This document shows, in pieces, positions 4,873 to 34,600 of a stretch of 64,000 nucleotides of DNA (position 1 is the stretch's first letter; every line of letters begins with the position of its first letter). The notes under the pieces are model-generated. The model saw nothing but the letters and a program-made list of their open reading frames with translations. It was not told the DNA's origin and searched no databases. The DNA is from Pirellula sp. (GTDB taxonomy: Bacteria > Planctomycetota > Planctomycetia > Pirellulales > PNKZ01): NCBI GenBank assembly GCA_013822735.1, contig PNKZ01000003.1, forward strand, positions 310,001 to 374,000, in the 5' to 3' direction. The translations under genes were made by a program, and so were the position numbers.

Positions 4873-5907
4873 GTGTCGCTTCGTCGCCTAGTTGCGCCGT
4901 TCTCCGCGCTGCTGTTGTGCGGGGTCGTGGCGATATCGCCGGTTGGGGCAACACGCTGCGCCGGGCAGGTGTTGCGCGATGCACAAGCGCCGGCCGCCGA
5001 CCGGTTGCCGGCCGACGACGCGGTGGTGGCGCGCGTCAACGGGGCGCCGATTCCGTTCCGCGAGGTGAAGCAGCAGCTCAGCAGCCTCCTGCAAGGGCGA
5101 GAGGTGCCGGCCAATGCGATGCCCCTCTTGCTGGCCCAGGGGTTGGAGCAAGTGATCGCGCGGGAATTGGTCGCCGCCGAGATGCGGCTCAAGAATTTGA
5201 AGCCGACGCCGGAAGACCTGAAGACGGCGGAAGAAAACTTCACGAAGAACTTGGCCCGCCGCGGCGTCTCGCGCGAGGAGTATCTGCGGCAAAGCTACTT
5301 GACCGAGGTCGATCTCGAAAAGGTGCGCTATTGGGAGATCTGTTGGAATCGCTATTCGCGCGACTTGTTGACGAACGACGATCTGCAAAAGTACTTCGCC
5401 GCGCATCATCGCGACTTCGACGGCACCGAACTCCGCGTCAGTCACGTCTTGCTGCGGATTGAAGGAACGCAAGATCAAGGGACGCTGGCCGCCGCCGCGC
5501 AGAAGGCCCAGGCCATCCGCGAGGAAATCGTCAACGGACGTTTGAACTTTGCCGACGCCGCGCTGCGCTTTTCGGCCGGCCCGAGCCGCGAACATGGCGG
5601 CGATCTCGGCTTCATCCCGCGCCGTGATCGGATGGTCGAAGAGTTTTCCGCCGCCGCATTTCGTCTCAAGGTCGGCGAGATCAGTCCGCCGACGGTTACC
5701 GTCTTCGGCGTGCATCTCATTACAGTAACCGAGGAAAAGCCGGGCAGAATCATCTGGCAAGACGTGCGCGAACAACTCGTCGCCGCGGCGCAAGTGCCCC
5801 TCTTCCGTCAACTTGCCGCGCACCTCCGCAAGACGGCGGAAGTGGAATATACCGGCCTCATTCCGCGACTCGATCCCGCCACCGGCAAAGTTGTGCCGGG
5901 AAGCTAG
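4873..5907 (+). CDS. SurA/PrsA-like parvulin peptidyl-prolyl isomerase
   Basis: I chose the GTG at 4873 because AAGGA lies about ten bases upstream and the resulting 344-residue protein opens with a signal peptide (LVAPFSALLLCGVVAIS). The earlier in-frame starts lie inside the previous gene. Residues about 40-165 form a SurA-type helical chaperone segment (VVARVNGAPIPFREVKQQL). Residues about 180-285 are a parvulin rotamase domain: LRVSHVLLRI, FADAALRFS, GGDLGFIPR and FGVHLITVTEEK are its standard landmarks. It should fold or escort exported proteins across the envelope. It ends a likely three-gene operon begun by the RraA-like gene. Confidence 0.85.
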   Translation: MSLRRLVAPFSALLLCGVVAISPVGATRCAGQVLRDAQAPAADRLPADDAVVARVNGAPIPFREVKQQLSSLLQGREVPANAMPLLLAQGLEQVIARELVAAEMRLKNLKPTPEDLKTAEENFTKNLARRGVSREEYLRQSYLTEVDLEKVRYWEICWNRYSRDLLTNDDLQKYFAAHHRDFDGTELRVSHVLLRIEGTQDQGTLAAAAQKAQAIREEIVNGRLNFADAALRFSAGPSREHGGDLGFIPRRDRMVEEFSAAAFRLKVGEISPPTVTVFGVHLITVTEEKPGRIIWQDVREQLVAAAQVPLFRQLAAHLRKTAEVEYTGLIPRLDPATGKVVPGS

Positions 5908-8464: not shown

Positions 8465-9250
8465 CTAGCGGCGTCCCAACAGCGCATCCACCGCGGCGCC
8501 GATGTCCGGCTGCCGCATCAGGCTTTCACCGACGAGGATTGCTTCTACTCCGGCGGCTTCGAGCCGTTCGGCGTCGGCCCTGTTGCGAATGCCGCTTTCG
8601 CTGACGAACACGCACTCTTTCGGCACTTGCGCGTGCAGGCGAATCGAATGTTCCAGGTCGACTTCGAACGTGTGCAGGTTGCGATTATTCACGCCGATGA
8701 GCGTGGCGCCGGCTTCGAGCACGCGCGGCAAGTTCGTCGGCTCGTAAAGTTCGACGAGCGGCGTCATGCCGAGTTCGAGAATCAAATTGTGCAGGCTGCG
8801 CAGACCGCAATCGTCGAGACATTCGGCGATGAGCAGTACCGCGTCGGCACCGGCGGCTCGGGCCTCGTACACCTGATACGGATCGAGAATGAAATCCTTC
8901 CGCAAGATCGGCAGAGCCACCGCGGCGCGTACCGCTTTGAGATACTCCAAGCTCCCTTGAAAGTATTGCACGTCGGTGAGCACGCTCAGGCAGCTCGCGC
9001 CATGCTCGGCGTAAATCTTGGCGATTTGCACCGGATTGAAATCGGCGCGAATTACGCCCTTAGACGGGCTCGCCTTTTTTACCTCGGCGATCAAACGAAT
9101 CGGCGGCCCGGCCGAGAGTGCGGCGAAAAAATCGCGCGGCGCACTCGCGGCGGCGGCGGCGCGTTCGACTTCGGCCTGCGGCCGCGCAGCCTTCGCTTGC
9201 GCGATCTCTTCGCGCTTCGTCGCGGTAATCTTGTCGAGAATCGTCGGCAT
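8465..9250 (-). CDS. trpC: indole-3-glycerol phosphate synthase
   Basis: The 261-residue TIM-barrel enzyme closes the indole ring in tryptophan synthesis, converting CdRP to indole-3-glycerol phosphate. The signature IAEVKKASPSKG carries the catalytic lysine. PILRKDFILDPYQVYEAR, GADAVLLIAECL, LVELYE, IGVNNRNLHTFEVDLE, VFVSESGI and AILVGESLMR are the successive barrel strands, so the protein is complete and full length. The start lies 6 bases after the purH stop with no good ribosome site, so translation is likely coupled to purH. No other trp gene lies nearby. Confidence 0.96.
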   Translation of the reverse strand: MPTILDKITATKREEIAQAKAARPQAEVERAAAAASAPRDFFAALSAGPPIRLIAEVKKASPSKGVIRADFNPVQIAKIYAEHGASCLSVLTDVQYFQGSLEYLKAVRAAVALPILRKDFILDPYQVYEARAAGADAVLLIAECLDDCGLRSLHNLILELGMTPLVELYEPTNLPRVLEAGATLIGVNNRNLHTFEVDLEHSIRLHAQVPKECVFVSESGIRNRADAERLEAAGVEAILVGESLMRQPDIGAAVDALLGRR

Positions 9251-9256
9251 GATGGC

Positions 9257-10834
9257 TTAGTGCTTAAAGTGCCGACGGCCGGTGAAGATCATCGCCAGTC
9301 CGTGTTCGTTGCAGGCGGCAATCACGTCCGGATCGTTCTTCGAGCCGCCGGGCTGAATCACGGCCTTCACGCCGGCCTTCGCCAAAGCATGGATTGAGTC
9401 GGGGAAGGGAAAGAACGCATCAGACGCCACGACCGAGCCGACGACCCGATCGCCGGCCTTCTGCACGGCGATCTGCGTCGAGTCGACCCGGCTCATCTGG
9501 CCCGCCCCGGTGCCGAGCAGCATCGAGTCTTTGGCGATGACGATGGCGTTCGACTTCACGTGCCGCACGACGGCCCAACCGAACCGCAGGTCGGCAAGCT
9601 GGCCATCGGTCGGTTGCGCCGTGGTCACGATCTTCCATTCTGCTTCCGGGTCGGGCAGCGCGTCGGCCGCCTGCACGAGCATGCCGCCGGCAATGCGGCG
9701 ATACTCGGTCCAGGCCACGGGTTCGCCGAGAGCTCCGAGAGCCAGCAAACGCACGTTGGCTTTCCACTTCGGCTTGGTCGTGAGCAACGTCAACGCTTCA
9801 GCATCGAAGCTCGGCGCGGCGATGGCTTCGATGAAGAGGCCCGGCTCGCAGAGCACTTCGGCGGTCGCCGCATCAACGGCCCGATTCATGCCGATGATGC
9901 CGCCGAACGCGCTGAGCGGGTCGCCTGCCAGAGCCCGACGACAGGCATCCGCAAGCGAAGCGCCCGATGCCGCGCCGCACGGATTGTTGTGCTTGATCAC
10001 CGCGGCGCCGGCTTGTGGGAAGCCGCGCACGATCGCCATGGCGCTATCAAGATCGAGCAGGTTGTTGTAGGAGAGTTCTTTACCGTTGAGCTGCTTGGCC
10101 GTGACGAGCGTGCCCGACGGCGGAGATGGTTCCGAGTAGAGTGCCGCCGGCTGATGTGGGTTCTCCCCGTAGCGCAACGCTTCGACGCGCCGCAGCGGAA
10201 TGGTAATTGTCTCGGGGAAAGTTTCGGCTGCTGTAGCGTCACCGGCGGTCTTCGCAAAGTAGGCGGCGATCGCTTGGTCGTACACTCCGGTAAATGCGTA
10301 GGCGCGGCCCGCGCACTTGCGGCGGAGTTCGTAAGTCGTGGCGCCGGTCGCGTTGATTTGGTCGAGCACCTCGGCGTATTGGTCCGGCGCGGTGACGATT
10401 GTCGTGAAGGCGTGGTTCTTCGCCGAGCCGCGCACGAGCGACGGACCGCCGATATCGATGTTCTCGATCGCTTCCTCGTCGGTCACGCCCGGCTTCGCTA
10501 CCGTGGCGGCGAAGGGATACAGATTTACCACGACCAGTTCGAAGGTCAGGATGCCGTGATCGGCGAGCGACTTCATGTCGTGGGGGTTGTCGTGTCGGCA
10601 AAGGATGCCGCCGTGAATCTTCGGATGCAGCGTCTTCACGCGGCCGTCCATCATTTCGGGAAAGCCGGTGTAGTCGGCGACATCGCGCACGGCGAGGCCG
10701 AGGCCTTCGATAAATTTGCGCGTGCCGCCGGTGCTGAAGAGCTCGATGCCGCGCGCCGCGAGTCCGCGGGCAAACACGTCGAGGCCTGATTTGTCACTCA
10801 CGCTGATCAATGCCCGACGAATCGGAGGATTCAT
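9257..10834 (-). CDS. purH: bifunctional AICAR formyltransferase/IMP cyclohydrolase
   Basis: PurH performs the last two steps of IMP synthesis. The ATG at 10834 gives 525 residues, the usual family length; the frame stays open upstream but without homologous sequence. The N-terminal MGS-like cyclohydrolase domain begins RRALISVSDKSGL and contains STGGTRKFIEG and TGFPEMMDGRVKTLHP. The C-terminal formyltransferase domain has RYGENPHQPAALY, QLNGKELSYNNLLD, VIKHNNPCGAA, SNAIVIAKDSMLLGTGAGQM and DAFFPFPDSI. The protein is cytosolic. trpC follows after 6 bases, forming a purine-tryptophan gene pair. Confidence 0.96.
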   Translation of the reverse strand: MNPPIRRALISVSDKSGLDVFARGLAARGIELFSTGGTRKFIEGLGLAVRDVADYTGFPEMMDGRVKTLHPKIHGGILCRHDNPHDMKSLADHGILTFELVVVNLYPFAATVAKPGVTDEEAIENIDIGGPSLVRGSAKNHAFTTIVTAPDQYAEVLDQINATGATTYELRRKCAGRAYAFTGVYDQAIAAYFAKTAGDATAAETFPETITIPLRRVEALRYGENPHQPAALYSEPSPPSGTLVTAKQLNGKELSYNNLLDLDSAMAIVRGFPQAGAAVIKHNNPCGAASGASLADACRRALAGDPLSAFGGIIGMNRAVDAATAEVLCEPGLFIEAIAAPSFDAEALTLLTTKPKWKANVRLLALGALGEPVAWTEYRRIAGGMLVQAADALPDPEAEWKIVTTAQPTDGQLADLRFGWAVVRHVKSNAIVIAKDSMLLGTGAGQMSRVDSTQIAVQKAGDRVVGSVVASDAFFPFPDSIHALAKAGVKAVIQPGGSKNDPDVIAACNEHGLAMIFTGRRHFKH

Positions 10835-11067
10835 GGCCACCCTAAACATCCTTCCTAAAAGCTCTTCCAGAAACGCGACGGGTTTGCGAATCGAGTGCCT
10901 GAGCGGCGTACGCATATCGCAAAACTTATTTATATCAAACGAGGTCCGAGGGCGGAGGGGGGCGTCGCGCAGCGCCGGCCCCTGGCATTTGGGCCGTCGC
11001 GAGACTTTAATAGGGGCCTGCCCGGCAACCTCGCCCCCCGATCATTCCAGCCCGTGAGGCATTTTTT

Positions 11068-12233: not shown

Positions 12234-12767
12234 ATGTCGAAATATTGGTTGCTTAAGAGCGAGCCGGACTGCTTTTCGATTCAGGACTTAGCGGCCGCGC
12301 CGAAACAGACGACCTTCTGGGACGGAGTGCGCAACTATCAGGCCCGCAATTTTATGCGGGATGAAATGCAGCCGGGGGACGGAGTGTTGTACTATCACTC
12401 CAGCGCGGAGCCGCCGGCCGTCGTCGGTACGGCGGTCATTGCGAAGGCCGGCTATCCCGACCACACGGCTCAGGATCCGAAGGGGGATCATTACGATCCG
12501 AAACATACGGCGCTGAGCCCCATTTGGTACATGGTCGACGTCCGGCTCGGCGAAATCTTTCCGCGCGAGCTGGCGTTGGAAGAGCTGCGCGGGGTGGCGG
12601 CGCTCAAGGATATGGAGCTGCTCAAACGCGGCAGCCGGCTCTCCGTGCAGCCGGTGCGGAAGAGCGAATACGAGGCGATTTTGAAACTGGCGAAAGCGCC
12701 CGCGCCGCCGACGGTATCGAAGCCTGCCGCGAAAAAGTCGCCTGCGAAGAAGGCAAAGTCGAAGTAG
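12234..12767 (+). CDS. EVE domain protein with Lys/Ala/Pro tail
   Basis: The first 150 or so residues are an EVE domain (PUA-like fold): KYWLLKSEPDCFSIQDL, FWDGVRNYQARNFMRD, GDGVLYYHSS and VGTAVIAKAGYPD, then YDPKH and WYMVDV. EVE domains bind modified bases in DNA or RNA and often act as readers in restriction or RNA modification. The last 27 or so residues are a Lys, Ala and Pro-rich tail that could give general nucleic-acid affinity. bioF begins 16 bases downstream, so the two are probably co-transcribed, although no functional link is obvious. Confidence 0.9.
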   Translation: MSKYWLLKSEPDCFSIQDLAAAPKQTTFWDGVRNYQARNFMRDEMQPGDGVLYYHSSAEPPAVVGTAVIAKAGYPDHTAQDPKGDHYDPKHTALSPIWYMVDVRLGEIFPRELALEELRGVAALKDMELLKRGSRLSVQPVRKSEYEAILKLAKAPAPPTVSKPAAKKSPAKKAKSK

Positions 12768-12783
12768 TACGATAGGCGGTCTT

Positions 12784-13947
12784 ATGTCCGGCGAGCGGCT
12801 AGCTTGGATCGACGACGAGCTGGCGCGACTTGCCGCGGCCGATCTCGATCGCCATTTGCAGACGCACGACGGCCCACAAGGGGCGACGCTCGCCTACCGT
12901 GGACGGGCGTTCGTCAACTTCGGCTCGAACGATTACCTCGGCCTGGCCGCCGATCCGCGCTTGGCCGCGGCGGCCCAAGCGGCGGCGGCCGGCGAAGGCT
13001 GGGGCAGCGGTTCTAGCGCCTTGGTCGTGGGCCATGGGGCGGCGCATGCGAGTCTGGAACGGGCCCTCGCCGAGTTTGAAGAAGCGGAAGCGGCGCTGTT
13101 GTTCTCGACCGGCTACGCCGCGAACCTGGGCACCATTGCGGCGTTGGTGGGGCGCGGCGACGTCGTTTTCAGCGACGAGCTCAATCATGCGAGCATCGTC
13201 GACGGTTGCCGACTCTCGCGGGCCGAAGTCCGTATCTATCCGCATGGCGACGTCGGCACGCTCGCCGCGGAACTGCGCGACGCATATGCCTTTCGTCGCC
13301 GGCTGATCGTGACCGACGGCATCTTTAGCATGGATGGCGATGTTGCGCCGCTGGCCGATCTCGCGGAACTCGCCGAGCGTCACGCGTGCATGCTCATGGT
13401 CGACGAAGCGCATGCGACCGGCGTGCTCGGTGCGCGCGGTCGCGGAGCGTGCGAAGCGGCCGGCGTCGAAGATCGCGTCGACGTGCGCGTCGGCACGTTG
13501 AGTAAAGCGCTCGGCGGCATCGGGGGCTTCGTCGCGGGCCGGCGGAGCTTGATCGATTGGCTTGTAAATCGGGCTCGACCGTATGTGTTTTCCACGGCAT
13601 TGCCTCCTGCGGCGGCTGCAGCGGCCGAGGCGGCGCTGCAGATTGTGCGCACCGAGCCGGAGCGGCGTACGACGTTGTTCGACCAAGCAACGATGCTCCG
13701 GCGCGAGTTGGCCTCGGCCGGCTGGGACGTTGGGCCTTCGACGAGCCAGATCATTCCCCTGGTGGTCGGCGCAGCGGCCGAGACGATGCGTTTGGCCGCG
13801 GCGTTGCGCGAGCGCGGGTTTCTCGTGCCGCCGATTCGTCCTCCTTCCGTGCCGGAAGGGGCCGCGCGACTGCGATTGAGCCTCGCCTATGGGCACACGC
13901 CGGCGATGTTGACGGAATTGCTCGCCGCACTCAAAGAATTGCGGTAG
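12784..13947 (+). CDS. bioF: 8-amino-7-oxononanoate synthase-like PLP enzyme
   Basis: The 387-residue protein belongs to the alpha-oxoamine synthase family of fold-type I PLP enzymes. Landmarks are FGSNDYLGLAADPRL, GSGSSALVVGHGAAHASLE, the cofactor-stacking DELNHASIVDG, VTDGIFSMDGDVAPL, LMVDEAHATGVLG, and the PLP lysine Lys241 in TLSKALGGIGGFVAG. In BioF the reaction joins pimeloyl-ACP or pimeloyl-CoA with alanine in biotin synthesis. The family also contains 2-amino-3-ketobutyrate CoA ligase and serine palmitoyltransferase. Length and motifs favour BioF, but no other bio gene is nearby, so the exact substrate is not proven. Confidence 0.85.
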   Translation: MSGERLAWIDDELARLAAADLDRHLQTHDGPQGATLAYRGRAFVNFGSNDYLGLAADPRLAAAAQAAAAGEGWGSGSSALVVGHGAAHASLERALAEFEEAEAALLFSTGYAANLGTIAALVGRGDVVFSDELNHASIVDGCRLSRAEVRIYPHGDVGTLAAELRDAYAFRRRLIVTDGIFSMDGDVAPLADLAELAERHACMLMVDEAHATGVLGARGRGACEAAGVEDRVDVRVGTLSKALGGIGGFVAGRRSLIDWLVNRARPYVFSTALPPAAAAAAEAALQIVRTEPERRTTLFDQATMLRRELASAGWDVGPSTSQIIPLVVGAAAETMRLAAALRERGFLVPPIRPPSVPEGAARLRLSLAYGHTPAMLTELLAALKELR

Positions 13948-15674: not shown

Positions 15675-15824
15675 TTACTTCTTGATCGCACGCGCCAAAC
15701 CTTCGACGGCCTCGATCAGGCGATCGAGCTTCCGCGAAACTTCGGCGAGCTGGTCCGGTCCGCCGGCGCGCGGGCCTTCAGGACCGCCCGGGCGATGTCC
15801 TTCGGGGCCGACGCTGTTGTGCCG
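15675..15824 (-). other. out-of-frame C-terminal helix of the His-rich protein
   Basis: Read in the frame that stops at 15675, this stretch encodes HNSVGPEGHRPGGPEGPR, a glycine linker, then DQLAEVSRKLDRLIEAVEGL and a short basic end. That is a well-formed amphipathic coiled-coil C-terminus, quite unlike the Ala/Ser/Arg-rich ending obtained in the main frame. It is best read as the true end of the His-rich protein, displaced by a one-base difference near 15820. No start codon precedes it, so it is not an independent gene. Confidence 0.65.
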
Positions 15825-17500
15825 TGCGCCTTCTGTCCGCCGGCTTGCGGGCCGCCCAGCGGGCGATGCATGCCGTGCGAGGGGCCGTTCATGGCGAGAC
15901 CGTGAGGTCGGTGGCCCCCCGGAGCGGAACCATGAGCTTGCGGGCCGTGCGCTTCGCCGCCGGGGCCTTGCGGGCGATGAGCTTCAGGGCCGCGACCTTG
16001 CGGGGCGTGCGCTTGCGGGCCTGCGGCATGGCGAGCATGTTCATGACCGGCTTCCGGGCCGCCTTCCGGTCGGCGCCCGTGGCTCGGATGATCTTCGTGG
16101 CGTGCGCCTTGATGGCGTGCCATGTGTGCGCTCGGGCCATGGTTGCCGGGAGCGTGATGACGGGCGCTTTGCCGACCGTGCATCGGCGGACGCATGCCGT
16201 GCGGCGCACGATGCATTGCGCGGTGACCGCCGTGCATCGCGTGCTGCGGACCGTGCATTCCCGGACGGCCATGATGCAGGCCGTGCGGTCCGTGCTTCGG
16301 ACCACCGTGCATGGCGTGAGGTCCGCCGTGCTTAGGACCGCCATGGTGCTTAGGACCATGCTTCGGCCCGCCGTGCATCGCATGTTGCGGGCCATGTCCG
16401 CCGCGGCAGTGCGGGCAGCCGCCGGCCGACGCGTGATGACGGCCTTCGTGCTTGCCGGGTTTGCCGTGCATTGCATGCTTGGCATGTTTGCCGGCGGCAC
16501 GTTCGTGCTTGGCATGCTTGGCACATTCCGGGCAGCCGCCGTCGCCGTGGCGCTGCGCCGAGTGAGGGCCTTGGTGAGCGTCGGATTCGTGAACGTGCGT
16601 CGGCGGACGATGGCCATCAGGACGCGGGCCCGCGTGGTGCGCCATCTCGCGATGGTGATCGCCGTGGCCATGTTCGCCAGGTTTGTGAGCGGCATGTCCG
16701 TGATCGCCGTGCGGGCGGCCTTCCGGCTTGCGGTCGTCGTGCCGTGCTTGGTCGGGTTTCTTGTCATCGGGACGCTTGTCCCCTTCCGGGCGTTTGGCGG
16801 CATCGGCCCGAGCGAACGACGGGCGCTCCATGCCGGGGCGTCCGAGGCCGGGGCCTGCCGAAGGTCCGCCGGGTCCGGCGAACATCATGCCGCGCAGCTC
16901 GCGAATCTTTTCGGGGCCGACGAGCTTCTCGATCTGCTCATGGACCCTCTTCATTTCTTCCATGTTCGGCGGGCCGGCACTACGGTCGCGGTTGTGCAGC
17001 TTCATGAACAACTCGTGCAGTTGCTTCGCCTTCTCAGGGCCGACGAGCTTTTCCATCCGCGCGTGCATTTCGCGACGACGAGCTTCCATTGCGGCGGCCA
17101 TGTCGGGGCGGATTTCAGGCTTGCGAGGTTCTTGCTTGCGAGCTTCTTCGCGCCGGGGCTCGTCCTTGCGAACATCCGGCTTGCGCGGCTCTTCCTTACG
17201 CGGTTCGTCTTTCTTTGCGTCCGGCTTGCGTGCTTCTTCCTTGCGCGGCTCGTCCTTCTTCACTTCTTCCTTCTTGGGTTCGCTCTTGGCAGGTTCGTCG
17301 GCAAGCGCGACTTGCGTGGGCGCCTTCTCGGCGACGACGGCCTTCGCCGGCGCGTCGTCCTTTTTCGGTACGGCGACTTGCTTGGTGGCGACGTCCTTCT
17401 TCGGTGCTGTGTCTTTTCCGATTGTGTCTTCCGCGTGTGCGGCGGCGACATATCCGCAAAGCAATGCCGGCAAGAGTGCCGACCGGAACCAGAAACGCAT
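15716..17500 (-). CDS. secreted His/Gly/Pro-rich protein with CPxC motifs (frameshifted end)
   Basis: The ATG at 17500 is preceded by TGGAGAACGCT, a good ribosome site, and starts a signal peptide (SALLPALLCGYVAAAHA). After it come Lys/Glu/Pro-rich repeats such as KKDEPRKEEARKP. Two related helices follow (MEKLVGPEKAKQLHELFMKL and IEKLVGPEKIRELRGMMF). Then come about 330 residues dominated by His, Gly and Pro (for example HAMHGGPKHGPKH) containing two cysteine pairs, GGCPECAKH and GGCPHCRGG. Such composition suggests metal binding in the periplasm, but no family name is known to me. The reading frame as given ends at 15716 with an atypical tail; the likely natural end is 15675 in another frame. 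Confidence 0.75.
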   Translation of the reverse strand: MRFWFRSALLPALLCGYVAAAHAEDTIGKDTAPKKDVATKQVAVPKKDDAPAKAVVAEKAPTQVALADEPAKSEPKKEEVKKDEPRKEEARKPDAKKDEPRKEEPRKPDVRKDEPRREEARKQEPRKPEIRPDMAAAMEARRREMHARMEKLVGPEKAKQLHELFMKLHNRDRSAGPPNMEEMKRVHEQIEKLVGPEKIRELRGMMFAGPGGPSAGPGLGRPGMERPSFARADAAKRPEGDKRPDDKKPDQARHDDRKPEGRPHGDHGHAAHKPGEHGHGDHHREMAHHAGPRPDGHRPPTHVHESDAHQGPHSAQRHGDGGCPECAKHAKHERAAGKHAKHAMHGKPGKHEGRHHASAGGCPHCRGGHGPQHAMHGGPKHGPKHHGGPKHGGPHAMHGGPKHGPHGLHHGRPGMHGPQHAMHGGHRAMHRAPHGMRPPMHGRQSARHHAPGNHGPSAHMARHQGARHEDHPSHGRRPEGGPEAGHEHARHAAGPQAHAPQGRGPEAHRPQGPGGEAHGPQAHGSAPGGHRPHGLAMNGPSHGMHRPLGGPQAGGQKAHGTTASAPKDIARAVLKARAPADRTSSPKFRGSSIA

Positions 17501-17545
17501 AGCGTTCTCCATACTGTGGGGGCGTGCCCGGCAGATGCGCTAGGG

Positions 17546-19807: not shown

Positions 19808-21832
19808 ATGGCCACTACCGTTGAACCGCAGCGCGGCGTGCCGACGCCGGACGAGTTGCGTCGGCTGCATGCGCGACTGGCCGAGCAAGTGCCGCGCGCG
19901 GCGGATGCGCGCAGTTACTGTGCCGCGTTCTTGGCCGACGTCGTACGGACGCTCGGCGTGCGCGGCGGCGTGGTGTGGCTGGCCGACGGCTCGCAACTCG
20001 ACGCGGTTTGCCAAGCCGGGCTCCGGCCCGAGGAACTCACCGGCTACACCGTGGCCGCCTTGGAAGTGCTCAGCCAAGGCATTGGTCGGATCGCGACGAA
20101 CGACGCGGCCGCTCAAGAAGCCGTACCGGCGGCGCTGCTCCTGTATCCCGTGCGTATCGGTACGACGACGCACGGCGTCGTGGGGCTCTCCGACGACGTC
20201 GCCACGCCGCGACCGCTCAGGGCTGCGCTGCAGCGGATGCTCGTGCCCCTGTGCGACCACTTGGCCGAATACTTGCAGCGTTGCTACACGCAGGCAGCCG
20301 CAAACGAATCGCCGACTGCGACGCCGCGCGAATTGCCTATCGCACAATACATTGCCGATATTCACGCCCCGCTCGACCTGCCGCGCACCGCGGCGGCGAT
20401 CGCCAACGAAACGGCGAGGCTCTTGGCTTGCGATCGGGTTTGTGTGGCGCTCTACCGTCATCGCCGCGCGGATACTCTGGCGGTGAGCGGACAAGATTAC
20501 GTCGATCGTCGGGCGGGACTCGTCGTGCGGCTGGAAGCGTTGGCGACGGCCGTGGCGGCGACGGGAGAAACTGTGCGCGCGCCGGGCGACGCGGAACGCC
20601 TTGCCCCACAAGTCGACGACGCATTGCAAGCCTATCTAGAAGAATCGCAATCGCGGCGACTGCAGGTCGTGCCGCTCCGCGAGCCCGCGGCCGAAGAAGA
20701 AACGGGCGCCGTGATCGGCGTACTGCTCGTCGAATGGATCGCCGGTTTGCAGCAGCCGCAACCTTCCGGACGGCGCAAAGCTCGGCGCGCCGCGGACGCG
20801 GACACGGCCGACGAAGCGACGGACGCTCTGCTGGGAGCGCTTTTACCTCATGCAGCGGCGGCACTGGCCAATAGCATTCGTTACGAAGCGGTCCCGCTCC
20901 GGTTTCTTACCGGCGGCGCCGTGCGACCCGGCTCGGTAGGCGGGAGCAACCGCTTCTCACGACCGATGATTTGGGGCGGCGCCGCGGCGACCATTTGCGC
21001 GGCGCTTTGGATCGTTCCGTACGATTTCGCAGTAGAGGCCCGCGGCACTTTGCAGCCGGCCACGCGCCGCGACGTATTCGCGCCGACCGACGGCGTCGTC
21101 GAGCGAATCTTCATTCGCCACGGCGATCCGGTAAAAGCCGGCGACCCGTTGTTTGAACTGCGCAGTTCCGACCTCGACGTGGCCGAAGCCGACCTGATCA
21201 AGCAGATCAACGAAACCGAACAAGAGTTCGCCAACGCCCAACGTCAATATAGCGACGGCCGTACGCAAACCCCCGCCGAACAGGCACGGCTCGTCGGGCA
21301 GATTGCCACACTCGAACAACGACGCGAGAGCCTGCGCCGTCAGGCTTCGCTCTTCGCCGAGAAGCGGGCGCGGTTGCGCGTCGCCAGCCCGATGTCGGGC
21401 CAAGTCGCTACGTGGAACGTTTCCGAACTGCTGGCGGAGCGACCGGTGCGGCAAGGGCAAACGCTGACGTCGCTCGTCGATCCCGCCGGCGAATGGGAGA
21501 TCGAAGTGCGCGTGCCGGAAGATCGCTTCGGCCATGTGGCGGAAGCGACGCGTGATCAGAAGGAGTCGCTGGAGATTGTGTTCGTGCTCGCCTCGTCGCC
21601 CGGACAAGAGTATCGCGGGAAGATCGTGGAAACGCATCTCGCGGCCGAGCCGCGCGGCGAAGAGGGTAATGTCGTGCTGGTGCGCGCCGCGATCGATAAG
21701 AAGCAACTCGCGCAACTGCATCCGGGCTCCGATGTGCGTGTGCGGGTCGAATGCGGCACACGGTCGCTCGGCTACGTGCTGCTGCACGACGTCTGGAGCT
21801 TCGTGCAATCGCGGGTGCTGTTCAAGCTGTAG
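19808..21832 (+). CDS. membrane fusion protein with two cytoplasmic GAF-like domains (GAF-GAF-TM-HlyD)
   Basis: AGGGGA about eight bases upstream supports this start. The 674-residue protein has three parts. Residues about 35-160 and 190-365 are two GAF-like sensor domains (SYCAAFLADVVRTLGVRGGV and RTAAAIANETARLLACDRVC). Residues about 385-403 are a single transmembrane helix (IWGGAAATICAALWIVPY). From about 410 there is an HlyD-type adaptor: a lipoyl half (VFAPTDGVVERIFIRHGDPV), a coiled-coil hairpin (about 455-525, rich in Glu, Gln and Arg), a second lipoyl half (LRVASPMSGQVATW) and a beta-barrel. Ordinary adaptors have no sensor domains. The next gene starts 9 bases after the stop, and the three genes form one export module. 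Confidence 0.85.
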   Translation: MATTVEPQRGVPTPDELRRLHARLAEQVPRAADARSYCAAFLADVVRTLGVRGGVVWLADGSQLDAVCQAGLRPEELTGYTVAALEVLSQGIGRIATNDAAAQEAVPAALLLYPVRIGTTTHGVVGLSDDVATPRPLRAALQRMLVPLCDHLAEYLQRCYTQAAANESPTATPRELPIAQYIADIHAPLDLPRTAAAIANETARLLACDRVCVALYRHRRADTLAVSGQDYVDRRAGLVVRLEALATAVAATGETVRAPGDAERLAPQVDDALQAYLEESQSRRLQVVPLREPAAEEETGAVIGVLLVEWIAGLQQPQPSGRRKARRAADADTADEATDALLGALLPHAAAALANSIRYEAVPLRFLTGGAVRPGSVGGSNRFSRPMIWGGAAATICAALWIVPYDFAVEARGTLQPATRRDVFAPTDGVVERIFIRHGDPVKAGDPLFELRSSDLDVAEADLIKQINETEQEFANAQRQYSDGRTQTPAEQARLVGQIATLEQRRESLRRQASLFAEKRARLRVASPMSGQVATWNVSELLAERPVRQGQTLTSLVDPAGEWEIEVRVPEDRFGHVAEATRDQKESLEIVFVLASSPGQEYRGKIVETHLAAEPRGEEGNVVLVRAAIDKKQLAQLHPGSDVRVRVECGTRSLGYVLLHDVWSFVQSRVLFKL

Positions 21833-21841
21833 GTTCGCTTT

Positions 21842-23152
21842 ATGGTTTGCAACTTTAGTGCGTGGAATGCCGGCATGATGTTCGGAAGCCGTTGGTCGTA
21901 TTTACGGATAGTTCTCGCCGCGGGGCTCGTTGCGAGCGTCGGCACGGCGGGAGTTCGTCTTCATGCTCAGTATCCGGCGACCGGGCCCGTGGCGCCGCAA
22001 GCGCCTGTGGAACCGCCGGCCATCGATCCGCATCGGCCCGCGACGGCCACGCCGTACGGCACCCCGCCGAGCGCACAGCATGCGCCCGTCGGCGGCGCCT
22101 CCCCTTGGTCGGCCGCTTCGAGCGATGCCCAATTTGTCGACCGTTACGGGGCGCGCGCCGCGACGCCTACCGCCGCTCCGGCCGCCGTGCAAGCTCCCGT
22201 GGCGAGCAACCCCTATCGCGATGCGCCCGTCGCGCAAGCTCCGCAACCGAGCGTGTCGGCCGGATCTTCCGCCGGCGAAGCGGTGTTGCGCGGTTGCATT
22301 GTGAAGTTGATCGATCAGATTCTTGTCTCGGTGCAAGAACCCGGCCTGATTACGGCGCTGGAGATTCGCGAGGGGATGATGGTCGAGGCCGACGTGCTCG
22401 TCGGGCGCGTCGGCGATAGCCAAGCGCGGATGGCCAAGCTCGTCGCCGAAGCGGAGCTGAAAATCGCGCAAGACAAAGCCACGAACGATATCGAAGTACG
22501 CTACGCCGAGTCGGCTGCGAAGGTCGCCGAGTTTGAATATCGGGCCGCGATTCAAGCCAACGAACGTGCGCATGCTTCCATCTCGCAAGTGAAGATGCAG
22601 GAACTGGCCCTGGCCTATGAGAAGGCGCAACGTCAGATCGAGCAGGCGCAGCACAACTTGGAAATCTACAAAGAAGAGGCGGCCGCGCAACGGGTGAAAG
22701 TCGACGCGGCCGAGGACGATGTGAAGCGCCGCCAAGTCTTCTCGCCGATCGCCGGCGAGGTGGTCGAAGTGCCGGTGCACATCGGCGAATACGTAAAGCC
22801 GGGGGACGCGATCTTTCAAGTCATCCGGCTCGATCAGCTCGCGGTAGAAGGCTTTCTCAGTTCGTCCGACTACTCTCCGAGCGACGTCGTCGGCAAGCCG
22901 GTGATCGTCGAAGCGGTGCTCGCCCACGGCCGTCGCCAAACGTTTGCCGGCAAGATCGTGTTTGCGCATCCCGAGATCGACGCGCGGCGGCAATTTCGCA
23001 TTAAGGCGGAAGTGACCAACATTGCCGAGAACGGACATTACCTGCTGCGTCCGGGTCAGGAAGTCGACATGGCCGTGCGGTTGAACGCTCCGGCGGAAGC
23101 GGTCGGCACCGAAAACTTGGCGACCCCTCCTTCGTCGACCAACATTCGCTAA
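21842..23152 (+). CDS. HlyD-family periplasmic adaptor with Pro/Ala-rich linker
   Basis: The 436-residue protein begins with a membrane anchor or signal sequence (LRIVLAAGLVASVGTAGV); a second ATG pair at codons 12 and 13 is an alternative start. Residues about 40-145 are a low-complexity Pro, Ala and Thr-rich linker. After it comes an adaptor core: lipoyl half (ILVSVQEPGLITALEIREGM), a long coiled coil (about 195-295, for example YEKAQRQIEQAQHNLEIYKE), the second lipoyl half (VFSPIAGEVVEVPVHIGEYV) and the beta-barrel ending in LLRPGQEVDMAVRL. It lies between the GAF-HlyD gene and the protease-HlyD gene and is probably a subunit of the same envelope-spanning assembly. Confidence 0.87.
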   Translation: MVCNFSAWNAGMMFGSRWSYLRIVLAAGLVASVGTAGVRLHAQYPATGPVAPQAPVEPPAIDPHRPATATPYGTPPSAQHAPVGGASPWSAASSDAQFVDRYGARAATPTAAPAAVQAPVASNPYRDAPVAQAPQPSVSAGSSAGEAVLRGCIVKLIDQILVSVQEPGLITALEIREGMMVEADVLVGRVGDSQARMAKLVAEAELKIAQDKATNDIEVRYAESAAKVAEFEYRAAIQANERAHASISQVKMQELALAYEKAQRQIEQAQHNLEIYKEEAAAQRVKVDAAEDDVKRRQVFSPIAGEVVEVPVHIGEYVKPGDAIFQVIRLDQLAVEGFLSSSDYSPSDVVGKPVIVEAVLAHGRRQTFAGKIVFAHPEIDARRQFRIKAEVTNIAENGHYLLRPGQEVDMAVRLNAPAEAVGTENLATPPSSTNIR

Positions 23153-23162
23153 CGCCTATTCC

Positions 23163-25403
23163 ATGGTCATTGTTGCCGAAGCCCCGTCGTCCGCAGCCGA
23201 TCGACCGGCGGCGGTTCGCGCTCGGCCCGACTTACAGTTCGTGCGACGCCGCCGAGCCGACGGCGCGGACTGGATCGTCAAAAACCCTCTCAGTCTCGAT
23301 TACTACCGGCTGCTCGAAGAAGAGCATTTCCTGCTGGAGCAGCTTGACGGCCGGCGCTCGCTTGAAGAGATTCGCCGCGCGTTCGAGGCCCGCTTCGCGC
23401 CGCAGACGATCGACCACGCCGAGATTCGCCGCTACATCGCCATCTTGCATCGCGACGGGCTCGTTATGTCGGCCGCCGCGGGTCAGGCCGGCGTGTTGCA
23501 CGAGCGCGGCATGCAGCGGGCGAAGCAAGCGCGCCGCGAACGAACCGGTAGCCTGCTCTCGCTAAGGTTTCGCGGTTTCGATCCCGATCGGCTGCTTGAC
23601 GCTCTCTATCCTTACATCCGGGCGGCGTTTGCTCCTTGGTGCGTTGCTCTATGCTTTGCACTCATGGCGGCCGCAGGGCTCACGGTAATCGCCCGTTGGG
23701 ATCTTTTTTTCTCGGCGCTACCGTCGTTTCATGAGTTCTTCACGCCGTCGAACGCCCTGTGGATTGCCGCGACGCTCGGAATCGTGAAGGTCGTGCACGA
23801 GTTCGGACACGGCTTTGCCTGCAAACATTTCGGCGGCCGCTGCCATGAGCTCGGCTTCATGTTGCTCTGCTTCACGCCGACGCTTTACTGCAACGTGACC
23901 GACTCCTGGCTCCTGCCGAGCCGACGGCAACGGGCCACGATCGGCGCGGCGGGAATCTATGTGGAGCTCGTGCTCGCGTCGTTGGCCGTGTTTGTGTGGC
24001 GGTTCAGCGAGCCGGGCCTGGTACATAGCCTGGCGCTCAACGTGATTTTCGTCTGCTCGGTTAGCACGCTGCTTGTGAACATGAACCCGCTGATGCGGTA
24101 CGACGGCTATTACATCCTTTCCGACGTGCTCGACATCACGAATCTCGGCGGCAAAGCCTCGGCCGCGTGGCGCGGGCTGCTCGGCCAAGTCTGTTTAGGC
24201 CTGAAGCGCGACGAAGACGATCCGCTCACGCCGCGCCGGCAGCGTGCGGCGCTGGCCGTCTACGCCGTGCTGGCGACCTTGTATCGCTGGTTCGTCTTCT
24301 TCGGAATCCTGTGGTTTCTCAACAAATGCTTCGAACCGTATCGGCTTGATTTCATCGGTCATTTGCTCGGCGTCGTGGCCGTCGCAGGCGTCGTCATGGC
24401 GCCGGTTCGCGGTCTGCGGCGCTTCTTTGCCGTGCCTGGGAGAATCCATCTCGTGAACAAGTCTCGACTCACCTACACCTGCGTCGCGATCGCGGCGCTC
24501 GTCGCGGCGGCCTTCTGGTTGCCGCTGCCGCATCGGGTGTATGCGCCGCTCGAAACAGCGCCGCGCGATGCACAGTCGGTGTTTGTGGAAGTTTCCGGCG
24601 TGTTGGAAGAAGTGCTCGTGAAGCCGGGCGACCGCGTGGAAGCCGGTCAGCCGCTGGCGCGGCTCGGCAACGTCGATGTAAAAATCGAAGTCGATCGCTT
24701 GCTTGGTCAACGCGACGAAACGATCGTACTGCTTGCGTCGCTCAAGAAAGAACGCTTCACCGATCCGCTCGCCGATGCCGGAATTGCGTTGGCCGAGCAA
24801 TCGCTCGCGGCGTACGAGCGCTTGCTCGAGAAGCGCCAGGGAGACCTAAACCGACTAATTCTCCGCGCGCCTGCGGCAGGCGTGGTGCTGCCGCCGCCGG
24901 GAGTGGCGCGCGAACCTGTCGACGATGGACGCTTGCCGGCTTGGCACGGCACGCCGCTCGAGAGGAAGAATCTCGGCTGCACGCTCCCGCAAGGAGCGCT
25001 CTTCTGCCGCATCGGCGACCCGCTCCGGATGGAAGCGATGCTCGTGGTCGATCAGGGAGACGTCGAGTTTGTAGCCCTCGATCAAGAGGTCGACGTCCGC
25101 CTCGACGAACTTCCCGGCCGTACTTGGCAAGCGAGCATTCGCGAAATGTCCAAGGCCGATCTCAAAATCGCCCCGCGCGCCCTCTCGAACAAGAGCGGCG
25201 GGGAAGTGGCGACGCGCACCGACGAATCAGGCCAAGAACGGCTGCGCTCGGCGGCCTACCAGGTGCGTGTGCTGCCGCTTGATGACCCCGACGGCCTCTT
25301 GCGCATGGCATTGCGCGGCGAAGCAAAGATCCATGTCGGCTCGCAAACCGCCGCGCAGAAGTTGGCCCGCGCGTTTAGCCGGACGTTTCACTTCGATTGG
25401 TAG
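23163..25403 (+). CDS. PqqD-like/M50 intramembrane protease/HlyD fusion
   Basis: The 746-residue fusion starts 10 bases after the previous stop. Residues about 20-105 resemble PqqD, a winged-helix peptide-recognition fold (YYRLLEEEHFLLEQLDG, then IRRYIAILHRDGLVMS). Then comes a multi-pass S2P/M50 metalloprotease with HEFGH at 212-216 and NPLMRYDGYY, whose Asp314 completes the zinc site. After more membrane helices (about 365-460), an HlyD-type region follows with a lipoyl half (SVFVEVSGVLEEVLVKPGDR), a helical hairpin, and a barrel (MLVVDQGDVEFVALDQEVDV). The order suggests substrate recognition, membrane cleavage or gating, and periplasmic hand-over in one chain. The substrate is unknown. 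Confidence 0.88.
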   Translation: MVIVAEAPSSAADRPAAVRARPDLQFVRRRRADGADWIVKNPLSLDYYRLLEEEHFLLEQLDGRRSLEEIRRAFEARFAPQTIDHAEIRRYIAILHRDGLVMSAAAGQAGVLHERGMQRAKQARRERTGSLLSLRFRGFDPDRLLDALYPYIRAAFAPWCVALCFALMAAAGLTVIARWDLFFSALPSFHEFFTPSNALWIAATLGIVKVVHEFGHGFACKHFGGRCHELGFMLLCFTPTLYCNVTDSWLLPSRRQRATIGAAGIYVELVLASLAVFVWRFSEPGLVHSLALNVIFVCSVSTLLVNMNPLMRYDGYYILSDVLDITNLGGKASAAWRGLLGQVCLGLKRDEDDPLTPRRQRAALAVYAVLATLYRWFVFFGILWFLNKCFEPYRLDFIGHLLGVVAVAGVVMAPVRGLRRFFAVPGRIHLVNKSRLTYTCVAIAALVAAAFWLPLPHRVYAPLETAPRDAQSVFVEVSGVLEEVLVKPGDRVEAGQPLARLGNVDVKIEVDRLLGQRDETIVLLASLKKERFTDPLADAGIALAEQSLAAYERLLEKRQGDLNRLILRAPAAGVVLPPPGVAREPVDDGRLPAWHGTPLERKNLGCTLPQGALFCRIGDPLRMEAMLVVDQGDVEFVALDQEVDVRLDELPGRTWQASIREMSKADLKIAPRALSNKSGGEVATRTDESGQERLRSAAYQVRVLPLDDPDGLLRMALRGEAKIHVGSQTAAQKLARAFSRTFHFDW

Positions 25404-30869: not shown

Positions 30870-31619
30870 GGAAGAGCCCGAGGAGAGCGGCATTGACTAC
30901 CGCAAAGCGGATTGATCGCGGCGGGCGCATCCAAAGCATCGCGGACTGATACAGTCGTGGGCCTTCCACAATCGCAAATCACCTTGGAGACTGCAAATTA
31001 TATAGAGTGCGGCCGGCCGTTCCGCTTTCTTACGAGACCGCTTTCATCGACACCGTCGACGAAGTGGTTATGGCGGCATCCGAGACTTCCGTGGTCGTAA
31101 TCTGCGGCGCTTCAGATGGCGATCGTCGGCGGATCTAAGTCGACGAGCGTTCGCGGGTAATTGGTCGTCGTCCGAAATGGAAGCGAGTGCTATCAAGAAC
31201 TGGTAGCACTGCGTTTTCTTTTGCGCAGGCGGCTCTGCATTTGCGTTGATGACATTCGCGCCTTTCCTCTGCCGCATTCCCTCGCGCAAAAGCAAAAATT
31301 CACCGATCCGCGTAGAGCCCGTGCGATGGATTTTCCGTGGCATTTGCTGGAGTTTCGAGCGGATGTTTTGCCGGCTCCCGCATCTCGGTGTCGTTCCACG
31401 CCAATAGCGAAGCTGTCGCGTGTTTGGCTACCCGCTCCGGATAGTGCGTTTACGCGCATTCTATGAGCGGAGTATTTGTAACGGCCGAAAAGTGTGCCGC
31501 AGGCGCGGACTTTGCGTTGGATCATCCCAGCCGAACGACGGCATGGATATGGATCAACGCGTTACGTGCGTAGCTCACCCGAAATTGAGGAGGCTCGCGG
31601 ACTCCCTCGGAATGGCTGC
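30870..31619. other. 750-base divergent gap without a recognised gene
   Basis: The gap lies between the divergent starts of the double hydrolase and the giant repeat protein. It is less GC-rich than its surroundings, with AT-rich patches such as AAATTATATAGAG near 30997. Open frames in it have no signal peptide, no ribosome site and no familiar motif. It should hold both promoters; I cannot place them with certainty. Confidence 0.5.
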
Positions 31620-34600
31620 ATGTATTTTCAGCGACGACGCATCGGGCGGTTTCTCCATTTAAGTCTTCGAACAGCGGCGACCCTTCTTGTATTGCAGTCG
31701 TGCTTCCAACTACACGCTGCCGTCTATACCTGGGATGCCAATAGTTCGACGACGGGGGCGCAAGACGGTGCGGGGACATGGCTCGCCGATGCGGGAAACT
31801 GGTTCAACACGACCACTCCTTTAGATAATCAAATCTGGCCGAACCTGCCCGGCGCCGCCCACGTCGCACAGTTCGGCGCCGGCGGCCCGACCGCGGCCGT
31901 CGTTACGCTCAGCGGCAACGTCAACGTATCGGGAATCAACTTCCTGACGGTAAACGCGGCATTCGGCAACAACGCCGCCGGCTACGCCGTGGGAAACAAC
32001 GCCGGCACTATCACATTTGACGACAACTCCATCATCAATTTGGCCGACGGCATTTCGGGCGCCAACACGTTCGTGCAGCTCAATCCGGCGGCGATCGTCG
32101 GCAATTCGCTTACGTTCCAAAAATTTACGGGAAGCGCGAACGCCCAGCGCATCCGCATCGGCGGGACCAATACCAATCTGCTGGGGACGCTCACCGTTCG
32201 CGGCACCGACGGCGGCGTGACCCTCCAGGTCGCCACGAGCGCGGCGATTCAGGCCGTTACGAAGATCGCCGTGGAGAGCGGCGGCGCGTTGCAATTAATC
32301 GGCGGCACCGACAATTACACGCGCAACCTGGAGCTCGCGGGCACCGGGATCAGCTCGACCGGTGCTCTCCTCTTCACCGGCGACGGCATTGTGCAATCCG
32401 GCAACATCCTGTTGAAAGCGGCGTCGTCGATCAGCCGCGGAACGGGGAACGTAACCGCGACGATCAGCGGGGTGATCAGTGAAGAGTCGGCCGGCCTCGG
32501 ACTCACGTTCCTCGAACGAGGCAACGTGATCCTCACCAACCAAAACACATACACGGGCACGACGGCGAATCGCGCGACGACGGTTGTCCCCACCAACCTG
32601 ACGCTCGACTTCACTACGCTCGGCGGCGACCAAAACGACATTCTCTACCACGGTGCGGCAGCGCCGGGCGATTTCCGCTTCGAGCATATCGCTCAAGCAG
32701 GACTGGTCAAGAATTCGCTTGTGATTCAAGGCGCAGCGACCGGAACCAACAGCCAACACCTGGGGAACGTGACGGTCGGTGATTCTTCGTTCGCGACGAT
32801 TCGCACCTCCGCAGCCCTCACGTTGCTTGCCGGCAACGCGAATACGCTCAATCTGACGACGGGCACGTTCAGTAAGGGAACGCTCGGCAGCACGCTGCGT
32901 ATTACCGGACCCGTATCGGGTACGATCACCGCCAACAACGGCACGTCGACCAACGGGTTGATCGGGCCGTTCGTCGTCTTCGTCAACTCGGCCGACGGCT
33001 CCGCCGGTTGGGCAGGCGTCACCGGGAACGTCGGCAACGGCGGCACGCTCGGCGTGTTCACCGGCGATACGCTCTACTCGACCGATGCGAACCTTACGAC
33101 GCTCGGCGCCGCGGCAAACGCCGCCGTTTCCAGCCGAAGCTCCGGCAACGTCGTCCAAACGGGCAACGTGGCGATCAATACCTTGACCATGCGCGACACG
33201 ATCGCGCTGCGCACCGTCACCGTCGGCACGGGCAACACGCTCCGGCTCGGTGAGAACGGCGGCGTGCAGATTGTCGCCGGCGGCGTCGATCTTACCATCG
33301 GCGCGGCGGGCAACGCCGGAACCTTGACGGCCGGCAATGCGTCGGTCGCGGGAGCCAATGACTTATACCTCACAAACTCTTCGAGCGTCGGCACGCTCAC
33401 CATTAACTCCGTGATCGCGAACAACGGCGCCAACGGGACCAATGACGTCGTTCACCTCGTCGTCAACGGCTCCGGCAAGGTCGTGCTCGCCGGCGGCAAC
33501 ACGTTCACGGGTAATCTTACGTTGCACGGCGGCATCCTTGAGTTGCGTAGTAACACGGCGCTCGGCACGAGCGCAGGTACCAACTACATTTACGACGGAG
33601 CCCAACTGCAACTCTCCGGGAGCATTTCCATCGCCGACGCCTTCAGCGCCGACGGTACCGGCTCGGCCGGCGACGGGGCGATCCGCAGTCTTAGCGGAAA
33701 CAACACGCTTGCCGGCGTCGTCACGGGATTCAATACGCGTATCACGCGGTTCACGGCCGACGCCGGCAGCACGCTCAACTTCAATAACGGCGGCGCCGCC
33801 ACTGCGGCCATTATCAACGGCAACGGCGCCGACCTGGTATTCGGCGGTGCGGGAACGATTATCGTCGCCAATCGATTGGCCAACGGCGTCGGCTCGCTCA
33901 CTAAAGAAGGTTCCGGCACCCTTGTTCTCAACGGTAACAACAACTTCACCGGCGTTTCCACCATTAACGGCGGCGTCGTCCGCGTCGGCAACGCGAACGC
34001 CTTTCACACGGCCGTCGACGGCGCGGCGATCACCGTCAACGACGGCGGCACATTGGAGTTCGTCGACGGCATCTCAATGCTCAACGACGCGCTGACGCTC
34101 GTAGGGGCGGGCGCCGGCGGCCAAGGCGCCTTGCGACTCTCGAGCGGCAACAACACTTACGCCGGCGTCATCACGATCTTGGGCGCCGCCTCGAACAACA
34201 CGGCGGTTCGCATCACCGTCGACTCCGGCGCGACGCTCACGCTCAGTCACGCTACGGCGGCGATCCAGCCGTCGAACAACGCCAACCGATCGGTCATCCT
34301 CGGCGGTGCCGGCGTCTTGAACATCACCGGAGTCGTTGCCAATTTTAACACGCGCGTGTTGCCGATCGTGAAAGACGGCTCCGGCAGCGTGAACTATCGC
34401 AACGCCAATACGTACACCGGCGCGACGACCGTCTCCGACGGCGTTCTGCGCCTCGACTTCGCCAACGCGACGCCGACCGCCAATCTGATCTTCGGCGGCA
34501 ACAGCGTCACGCTCAACGGCGGCACGTTGAATTTCGCAGGCAAGGCCTCGGCGACCAATACGCAACTCCTTACCGCAATCAGCGTCGGGGCCGGACGCTC

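Follow-up and report, generated by a model that had tools for sequence, protein, structure and literature searches.

We analyzed three adjacent genes of Pirellula sp., a candidate core of a protein export machine, located in a stretch of 64,000 nt from contig PNKZ01000003.1 (GCA_013822735.1, positions 310,001 to 374,000; labeled C3 in its own genome), hereafter called the window. All three are on the plus strand, separated by spacers of 9 and 10 bases, and the domain layout of this trio is GAF-GAF-HlyD, HlyD, and RRE-M50-HlyD. In window coordinates, the features are as follows.

19808 to 21832, plus strand: gene 1 (674 amino acids [aa]), two GAF domains, one membrane helix (by eye), and an HlyD adaptor
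19940 to 20281, plus strand: first GAF-like domain of gene 1, residues 45 to 158 (PF13492, E 1.5e-6, 29.1 bits, cut-off 27)
20375 to 20734, plus strand: second GAF domain of gene 1, residues 190 to 309 (PF01590, E 5e-9, 37.2 bits, cut-off 22.4)
21071 to 21727, plus strand: HlyD/biotinyl-lipoyl adaptor part of gene 1 (PF13437, PF16576, PF13533)
21842 to 23152, plus strand: gene 2 (436 aa), a periplasmic HlyD adaptor (PF13437 HlyD_3, E 9e-11)
23163 to 25403, plus strand: gene 3 (746 aa), RRE (PqqD-like), site-2 protease (S2P)/M50, and HlyD adaptor in one chain
23208 to 23471, plus strand: RRE/PqqD-like winged helix of gene 3, residues 16 to 103 (profile matches 3g2b and 6jx3; structural Z 9.8 to TbiB1)
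23730 to 24338, plus strand: S2P/M50 membrane protease domain, about residues 190 to 392 (PF02163 above cut-off; RseP and SpoIVFB fold matches)
23796 to 23810, plus strand: HEFGH zinc-binding motif, residues 212 to 216 (H212, E213, and H216 invariant in 60/60)
24084 to 24107, plus strand: NPLMRYDG motif, residues 308 to 315 (P309 and D314 invariant in 60/60; N308 and G315 invariant in 52 planctomycete rows)
24522 to 25373, plus strand: HlyD/membrane fusion protein (MFP) adaptor part, residues 454 to 737 (Z 17.3 to MacA)

Domain architecture of the trio

The GAF fold of gene 1 was recovered by profile matches above the cut-off, together with its adaptor part (HlyD_3 at E 9e-14). Since PF01590 was kept in 36/40 relatives of gene 1, its GAF domains are conserved; they could be sensors or, equally, docking domains. 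The true start of gene 2 is perhaps the ATG at 21875, which by eye opens a Sec-type signal peptide (N-terminal hydropathy of 2.63).

In gene 3, the M50 profile (E 4e-8, 33.3 bits, cut-off 27.2) and, marginally, HlyD_3 (E 2e-4) matched above their cut-offs, and the HExxH motif plus the Asp of NPxxxxDG were invariant in all 60 aligned relatives. The PqqD match of the single sequence was below the cut-off (E 0.014), and per-protein Pfam matches, obtained for 18/52 relatives at E ≤0.01, were judged too weak as proof of an RRE and were replaced by profile and structure comparisons. A profile of the region (92 positions, 33 sequences) retrieved PqqD 3g2b (4e-4) and the lasso RRE TfuB1 (6jx3; 0.003) and, more weakly, PqqC/D (0.1) and TbiB1 (0.16). 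We also obtained an AlphaFold model of gene 3 from a 52-row alignment (predicted local distance difference test, pLDDT, of 84.9). Residues 16 to 103 of the model aligned with the leader-bound RREs TbiB1 (Z 9.8) and TfuB1 (Z 9.6) over 84 residues at a root mean square deviation (rmsd) of 2.6 to 2.8, the M50 region (ranges between residues 142 and 392) with RseP (Z 9.7 to 10.0) and SpoIVFB:pro-sigmaK (Z 9.5) at an rmsd of 3.7 to 4.8, and residues 454 to 737 with MacA/MexA-type adaptors (Z up to 17.3), in a comparison where Z values below 8, or below about 13 in helical folds, can reflect a common arrangement. On these profile and model grounds, we regard the predicted PqqD/RRE winged-helix fold of the gene 3 N-terminus as solid. 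No ATP-binding cassette (ABC) ATPase, TolC, or SecA domain was found by profile search in the three genes.

An earlier note, made from the letters of this DNA, had described the three plus-strand genes with the same gaps, the GAF-GAF-HlyD and HlyD proteins followed by an M50 protease joined to HlyD, an intact HEFGH and NPxxxxDG site, and a module free of an ABC ATPase or a TolC-like channel, all of which we recovered. Its PqqD-like fold, below the cut-off in the single sequence, is borne out by the profile of 33 relatives and the AlphaFold alignment to RREs.

Gene order, SecA-like partners, and neighbors

To place the trio among its relatives, we used 80 loci, nearly all labeled as planctomycetes, which ranked best among at least 574 candidates. 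The order GAF-HlyD, HlyD, M50-HlyD was kept in 57 of the 58 loci with ≥3.7 kb upstream of the M50 gene, the exception (L091) having one long frame there, and because of this constancy we do not ascribe the arrangement to chance. Thus, the same trio, for which the earlier note had suggested a search, does recur elsewhere. A recurring small precursor, which it had also suggested looking for, did not appear: no precursor-like family recurred among 1,660 intergenic open reading frames (ORFs) of 28 to 149 aa near trios. Small families recurring in at least three loci comprised DUF3467, an IF-1-like gene (by eye), a set of four, and what seem to be shadow frames of DUF3467 and the IF-1-like gene. 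Of the small partners, DUF3467 is the most frequent in both phyla, with 28/80 planctomycete loci and 5 plasmid loci (for example, L017 at 4874 to 5236, L074 at 12410 to 12790, and L109 at 9788 to 10069). For a SecB-like role of this protein, the model was weak (pLDDT of 63), no PDB match was obtained at E ≤0.001, and no SecB appeared in the best 50 of 369 matches.

These small ORFs bear on the possibility that the trio matures and exports ribosomally synthesized and post-translationally modified peptides (RiPPs). In this reading, the RRE-M50 protein would, as in daptide clusters, cut the leader off a small modified peptide that is then exported by the adaptors. RRE domains are characteristic of RiPP enzymes, and the best family for the RRE and M50 part of gene 3 is the NCBIfam daptide_HExxH (NF041824; E 5e-55), that is, daptide MpaP, which also has its RRE N-terminal to the S2P/M50 domain and acts on leaders with an E-x-M-E core. 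However, the gene 3 protein reaches 187 bits, well below the equivalog cut-off of 300, the family model (379 positions) covers RRE and M50 only, with no HlyD part, and MpaP substrates are small RiPP precursors, of which no candidate family recurs near the trios. PMC10036551 describes MpaP as an RRE-M50 fusion, precursors carrying ELExMEAP, and clusters with ABC transporters and modifying enzymes. We recognized no peptide-modifying enzyme on reading, without a profile scan, the 25 most recurrent neighbor families of ≥100 aa, and we consider this explanation unlikely.

Trios always adjoining an ABC transporter, a pattern that the earlier note had named as speaking against it, were not what we observed. 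An ABC ATPase family occurred in only 5/80 loci, at differing distances and on both strands, and the ABC ATPase gene of the window (44280 to 45218) lies 18.9 kb downstream of the trio. The ABC ATPases near trios are tentatively taken as unrelated to them.

The ATPase that does exist in the family, and that the earlier note had missed, is SecA-like. The genome contains four paralogous trios: gene 3 has full-length paralogues (35 to 47% identity) on three other contigs (C30, C13, and C15), with a GAF-HlyD gene and a short HlyD-like gene (the short genes assigned by position) ahead of each. A SecA-like protein (647 or 628 aa) comes after the C30 and C13 trios, i.e., beside two of the four. SecA_DEAD genes are present in this genome on C6, C30, C29, and C13 only, SecA being encoded in the 1,306-aa frame on C6. 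The SecA-like gene on C29 is an orphan, immediately preceded by a DUF3467 gene (the two at 8911 to 10893 and 10935 to 11441 of L137) but far from any M50 trio, and this pair is a possible shared motor for the trios lacking SecA. The SecA-like frames are 628 to 749 aa long and lack the C-terminal part of SecA, the SecA-profile match of the C30 and C13 proteins ending at about position 600 of 790 to 810. Walker A and B are intact in 19/19 SecA-like proteins checked (the split frame of L120 was left out), and the two scanned by Pfam have SecA_DEAD, PP_bind, and P-loop domains.

Loci of this kind have been in print since 2015 without a cargo or a role. Kamneva, Poudel and Ward (PMC4452313) reported secondary SecA_DEAD proteins with GAF/HlyD, M50/HlyD, and HlyD genes, proposing SecA as the ATPase and M50 as a possible pore with a role "completely unknown"; in the accessible part of that text, PqqD, LEPR, and giant have zero occurrences and no cargo is named. 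Their loci share with ours the GAF+HlyD, M50+HlyD, and HlyD/biotin_lipoyl genes in planctomycetes and proteobacteria, the lack of an ABC transporter, and, at times, OEP/TolC. The window trio has the three-protein feature (GAF+HlyD, M50+HlyD, and a third HlyD), whereas the secondary SecA_DEAD gene, present beside the C30 and C13 trios, is absent beside that of the window (C3). Because it has no SecA neighbor, we classify the window copy as a SecA-less variant of this locus. While M50 was read there as a pore, here it is read as a putative leader peptidase.

We also examined 14 proteobacterial plasmid loci. The fuller operon comprises a giant LEPR-XLL gene, DUF3467, GAF-HlyD, RRE-M50-HlyD, a SecA-like gene, HlyD, and TolC, with varying completeness: the SecA-like gene is present in 9/14 loci, and TolC is annotated in 5/14 (L110, L111, L113, L124, and L125). 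A channel of the type sought by the earlier note does occur in relatives, while no ABC ATPase partner is conserved. The alphaproteobacterial order is giant-DUF3467-GAF/HlyD-M50/HlyD-SecA, with annotated giant genes of 26.5, 31.8, and 38.8 kb. These operons bear on envelope signaling as another reading, in which GAF would sense a cytoplasmic signal, the S2P would cut a membrane regulator, and HlyD would be a scaffold for regulated intramembrane proteolysis. The conserved GAF domains (36/40) and the intact S2P site are compatible with it, a protein-kinase-like family (by reading) occurs in 5/80 loci, and a regulatory role of the GAF protein is proposed in PMC4452313. However, the proteobacterial operons repeatedly bring MFP-type adaptors together with the SecA-like ATPase and giant cargo genes, and sometimes with TolC, and reading the 25 most recurrent neighbor families revealed no anti-sigma family, so we hold signaling to be very unlikely.

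A SecA-less branch of RRE-M50-HlyD relatives (L113, L123, L124, and L125) comes from Azospirillum, Tistrella, Niveispirillum, and an enterobacterial IncHI plasmid. HlyD genes and TolC are annotated in 3/4 of these loci (L123 is unannotated), and a large protein with a LE[PS]R-x-[LM]-F-D tag is found nearby in 3/4. For the RSP Big proteins of IncHI plasmids, export dependent on a type IV secretion system has been reported (PMC6764697 and PMC8730810, whose accessible parts do not mention HlyD or TolC). We draw no support for the trio from these proteins, which may differ from those beside the M50 gene.

Among the other neighbors, the IF-1-like gene lies upstream of the trio in 8 loci (e.g., L058, L065, and L073), where it probably marks the ancestral chromosomal position. 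In 11/80 loci (L044, L054, L058, L065, L073, L082, and L092 among them), the region upstream of the trio encodes, on the other strand, a member of a family of ~570 aa with signal-like N-termini. Promoters and terminators gave no signal above shuffles.

LEPR-XLL proteins as candidate cargo

A single set of 294 genomes from the phylum was used for all co-occurrence analyses, with the curated NF012209 as the main test for the LEPR-XLL tag; per-genome counts are lower bounds (at most 3 M50 candidates and 28 tag candidates scored per genome). The M50 profile found 67/294 genomes and LEPR-8K was above the cut-off in 38, of which 35 were common to both. Hence, the tag was present in 35/67 M50-positive versus 3/227 M50-negative genomes (odds ratio of 82), with a p value of 3e-23 that overstates independence because the genomes are related; at the family level, it was present in 19/30 trio-positive families. 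Tag matches solely below the cut-off, used as a control, showed no association (2/67 versus 9/227). PEP-CTERM, another short sorting tag, gave 32/67 versus 67/227 (odds ratio of 2.2), and the LEPR association held inside the PEP-CTERM-positive genomes (24/32 versus 1/67). A second SecA_DEAD gene was found in 46/67 trio-positive versus 11/227 trio-negative genomes.

Tag and trio are also physically linked. The tag lay ≤15 kb from the M50 gene in 10/35 genomes, ~7 times the ~1.4 expected when contig ends are ignored; in one of these ten (G034), it is below the NF012209 cut-off and was recognized at 4e-8 by a custom profile (see below). Among 393 neighbor ORFs of ≥250 aa, from the 80 loci and three own trios, an N-terminal tag (first 160 residues) was found in 12, versus 0.28 in shuffles and 0/680 internal segments; 11 belong to the 80 loci and one lies beside the C13 trio. 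Within the Pirellula genome, a tagged N-terminus, basic and followed by an LE-x-R-type tag, lies ≤5 kb from three of the four trios (C30, C13, and C15), NF012209 recognizing only that of C30 and the motif the other two. At least four further tagged proteins lie away from trios (C26, two on C1, and C9). The giants on C26, C1, and C30 have a nearly identical leader, and C26 and C1 hold tagged giants, yet neither contig has an M50 copy of the gene 3 family.

In the proteobacterial loci, a tagged giant adjoins the M50 gene or lies within ~6 kb of it in 11/12 cases with a readable N-terminus, namely 7/7 readable SecA-class loci, L110 (no SecA), and 3/4 of the remaining SecA-less ones, one with a LESR variant. 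The record start cuts the giant in L112 and L120, L113 has no tagged giant, L122 has its tag ahead of the annotated start, and the giant of L121 would meet the trio only across the record start. NF012209 was above the cut-off in 7/10 giants scanned, and in 7/7 from proteobacterial loci with SecA and/or DUF3467.

These associations have to be weighed against the idea that the trio is the core of a tripartite efflux pump or of a lipid or polysaccharide exporter, linked to LEPR only indirectly through large, surface-rich genomes. The adaptor parts of the trio do match multidrug MFPs, PEP-CTERM is weakly associated with the trio too, and ABC ATPases are present in 5/80 loci and downstream in the window. 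Nevertheless, the LEPR odds ratio persisting in PEP-CTERM-positive genomes, the physical linkage, the alphaproteobacterial operon order, and the scattered positions and strands of the ABC ATPases in those five loci argue against it, and we find it improbable.

Alignment of 17 tags showed a common [LMI]-E-x-R that leads into a short hydrophobic run and in most cases has E/D at position -3 relative to its E. In 22 N-termini, the 40 residues ahead of the tag are basic (net charge from +4 to +12), and 21 of them lack a clear Sec-type hydrophobic core; in the exception (L087), the start was probably called too early. Compared by eye, the E-x-[LM]-E core resembles the daptide leader motif.

Besides the relatedness of the genomes, several results weigh against a pairing of trio and LEPR-XLL proteins. 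LEPR-8K above the cut-off is missing from 32/67 M50-positive genomes and a tag by either profile from 25/67 (including 7 genomes of family f4 and 5 of f35), owing either to a drifted tag or to other cargo. The three LEPR-positive genomes outside the M50 set, when re-searched, showed no such M50 protein, and the control Deinobacterium chartae has a LEPR-8K match and no RRE-M50 profile match. The custom 28-column tag profile (A3) raised the union detection from 35 to 42/67, but it also matched 19/227 trio-negative genomes, for which reason NF012209 was kept as the main test, and 12/17 of its rows come from trio neighbors. The tagged fraction of the neighbor ORFs is small (only 12/393), and values in the hydropathy test, which is crude, overlap with those of its controls (1.84 versus 1.77). 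Of the five LEPR-8K matches above the cut-off in the Pirellula genome, two (frames of 109 and 140 aa) may be fortuitous. NF012209 does not match the giant at C1:444 kb of this genome, and the two giants scanned from the SecA-less branch gave no match in one case and a match below the cut-off in the other. With regard to the partners, a SecA-like gene is beside the trio in only 8/80 closest loci, and the own-genome SecA_DEAD search placed none beside the window or C15 trios. In the annotated planctomycete loci no TolC was seen, although TolC was not searched for there, and no outer membrane factor was found in the trio or the 20 neighboring window ORFs scanned, the other window ORFs being covered only by reading. 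Finally, no tagged protein was found in the window.

A DNA pattern for the tag core had 2 matches in the window versus 5.5 expected, and loose-regex tag matches in the first 160 residues of three window ORFs (at 37775; at 41443, Mur-ligase-type; and at 44280, the ABC ATPase) were judged to be chance. The window does contain a frame of 1,924 aa (31494 to 37268, plus strand) with autotransporter-type beta-strand repeats, a PEP-CTERM match marginally below the cut-off, and an apparent Sec-type signal peptide, its product being apparently sorted by a route other than the LEPR tag. Another frame of 598 aa (15716 to 17512, minus strand) is extremely His-rich, with Gly/Pro/Lys repeats and a signal-like N-terminus, and its product looks like a metal-binding surface protein. 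Elsewhere in the genome, two open frames with PEP-CTERM matches, 12,608 aa at C11:57167 and 8,905 aa at C11:84601, encode very large proteins that belong to a second sorting class.

A proposed export machine for giant proteins

We propose that the trio probably forms the core, spanning inner membrane and periplasm, of an export machine dedicated to giant LEPR-type proteins, with recognition by the RRE, probable trimming, and a SecA-like motor. The proposal builds on features read from sequence or model, i.e., the domains, the invariant catalytic residues, the gene order, the SecA-like partners with intact Walker motifs, and the LEPR linkage. LEPR-XLL-type giants carry near their N-terminus the tag E-x-[LM]-E-[PDAEQ]-R-x-L-L, which the RRE of gene 3 would bind, and the fused S2P site may clip the leader within or just past the short hydrophobic run, or else gate passage in some other way. 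The SecA-like ATPase, minus the C-terminal part of SecA, would push the unfolded chain, and the three HlyD adaptors would form a periplasmic duct leading to a TolC-type channel, the order of these steps being presumptive. The window copy would rely on cargo, motor, and channel encoded elsewhere in the genome. SpoIVFB cuts pro-sigmaK at its N-terminal part, and the structure of the two together, going by its title, is a precedent for an S2P acting on a pro-sequence.

Thus, the view of the earlier note that the module recognizes, cleaves, and exports its substrate and differs from a standard type I system agrees with the RRE fold, the intact S2P, and the lack of a conserved ABC partner. The peptide or lipoprotein that it suggested as substrate gives way, from the sequence data, to a giant LEPR-XLL protein as the most likely cargo, which it had overlooked.

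Type I secretion signals are C-terminal, and in the accessory Sec system a dedicated SecA paralogue (SecA2) serves large surface proteins. The proposed machine shares with type I systems (HlyB-HlyD-TolC) the HlyD-type adaptors, TolC in 5/14 proteobacterial relatives, and a large cargo, but it has a SecA-like ATPase and an S2P protease instead of a conserved ABC ATPase, and its tag is N-terminal. It differs from accessory Sec in that the SecA-like frames lack the C-terminal part and have RRE-M50 and HlyD adaptors as partners.

In the literature that we found, the accessible texts mention LEPR-XLL in passing and give no export route, and a search from which subscription journals were mostly absent returned no joint account of the trio and the LEPR cargo or its mechanism. 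More tentatively, the trio may represent an unrecognized Gram-negative secretion class, common to planctomycetes and proteobacteria, in which an RRE-S2P-adaptor protein picks giant LEPR-XLL proteins by their N-terminal tag and works with a SecA-derived motor and an HlyD/TolC duct, plus a SecA-less branch that would read LE[PS]R-x-[LM]-F-D. If this is true, the leader-peptide logic of small peptides would also sort giant surface proteins. LEPR-XLL proteins can rank among the largest bacterial proteins. Tying the locus and the giants together would give each a testable function and would explain the presence of a RiPP-type recognition domain on an S2P protease.

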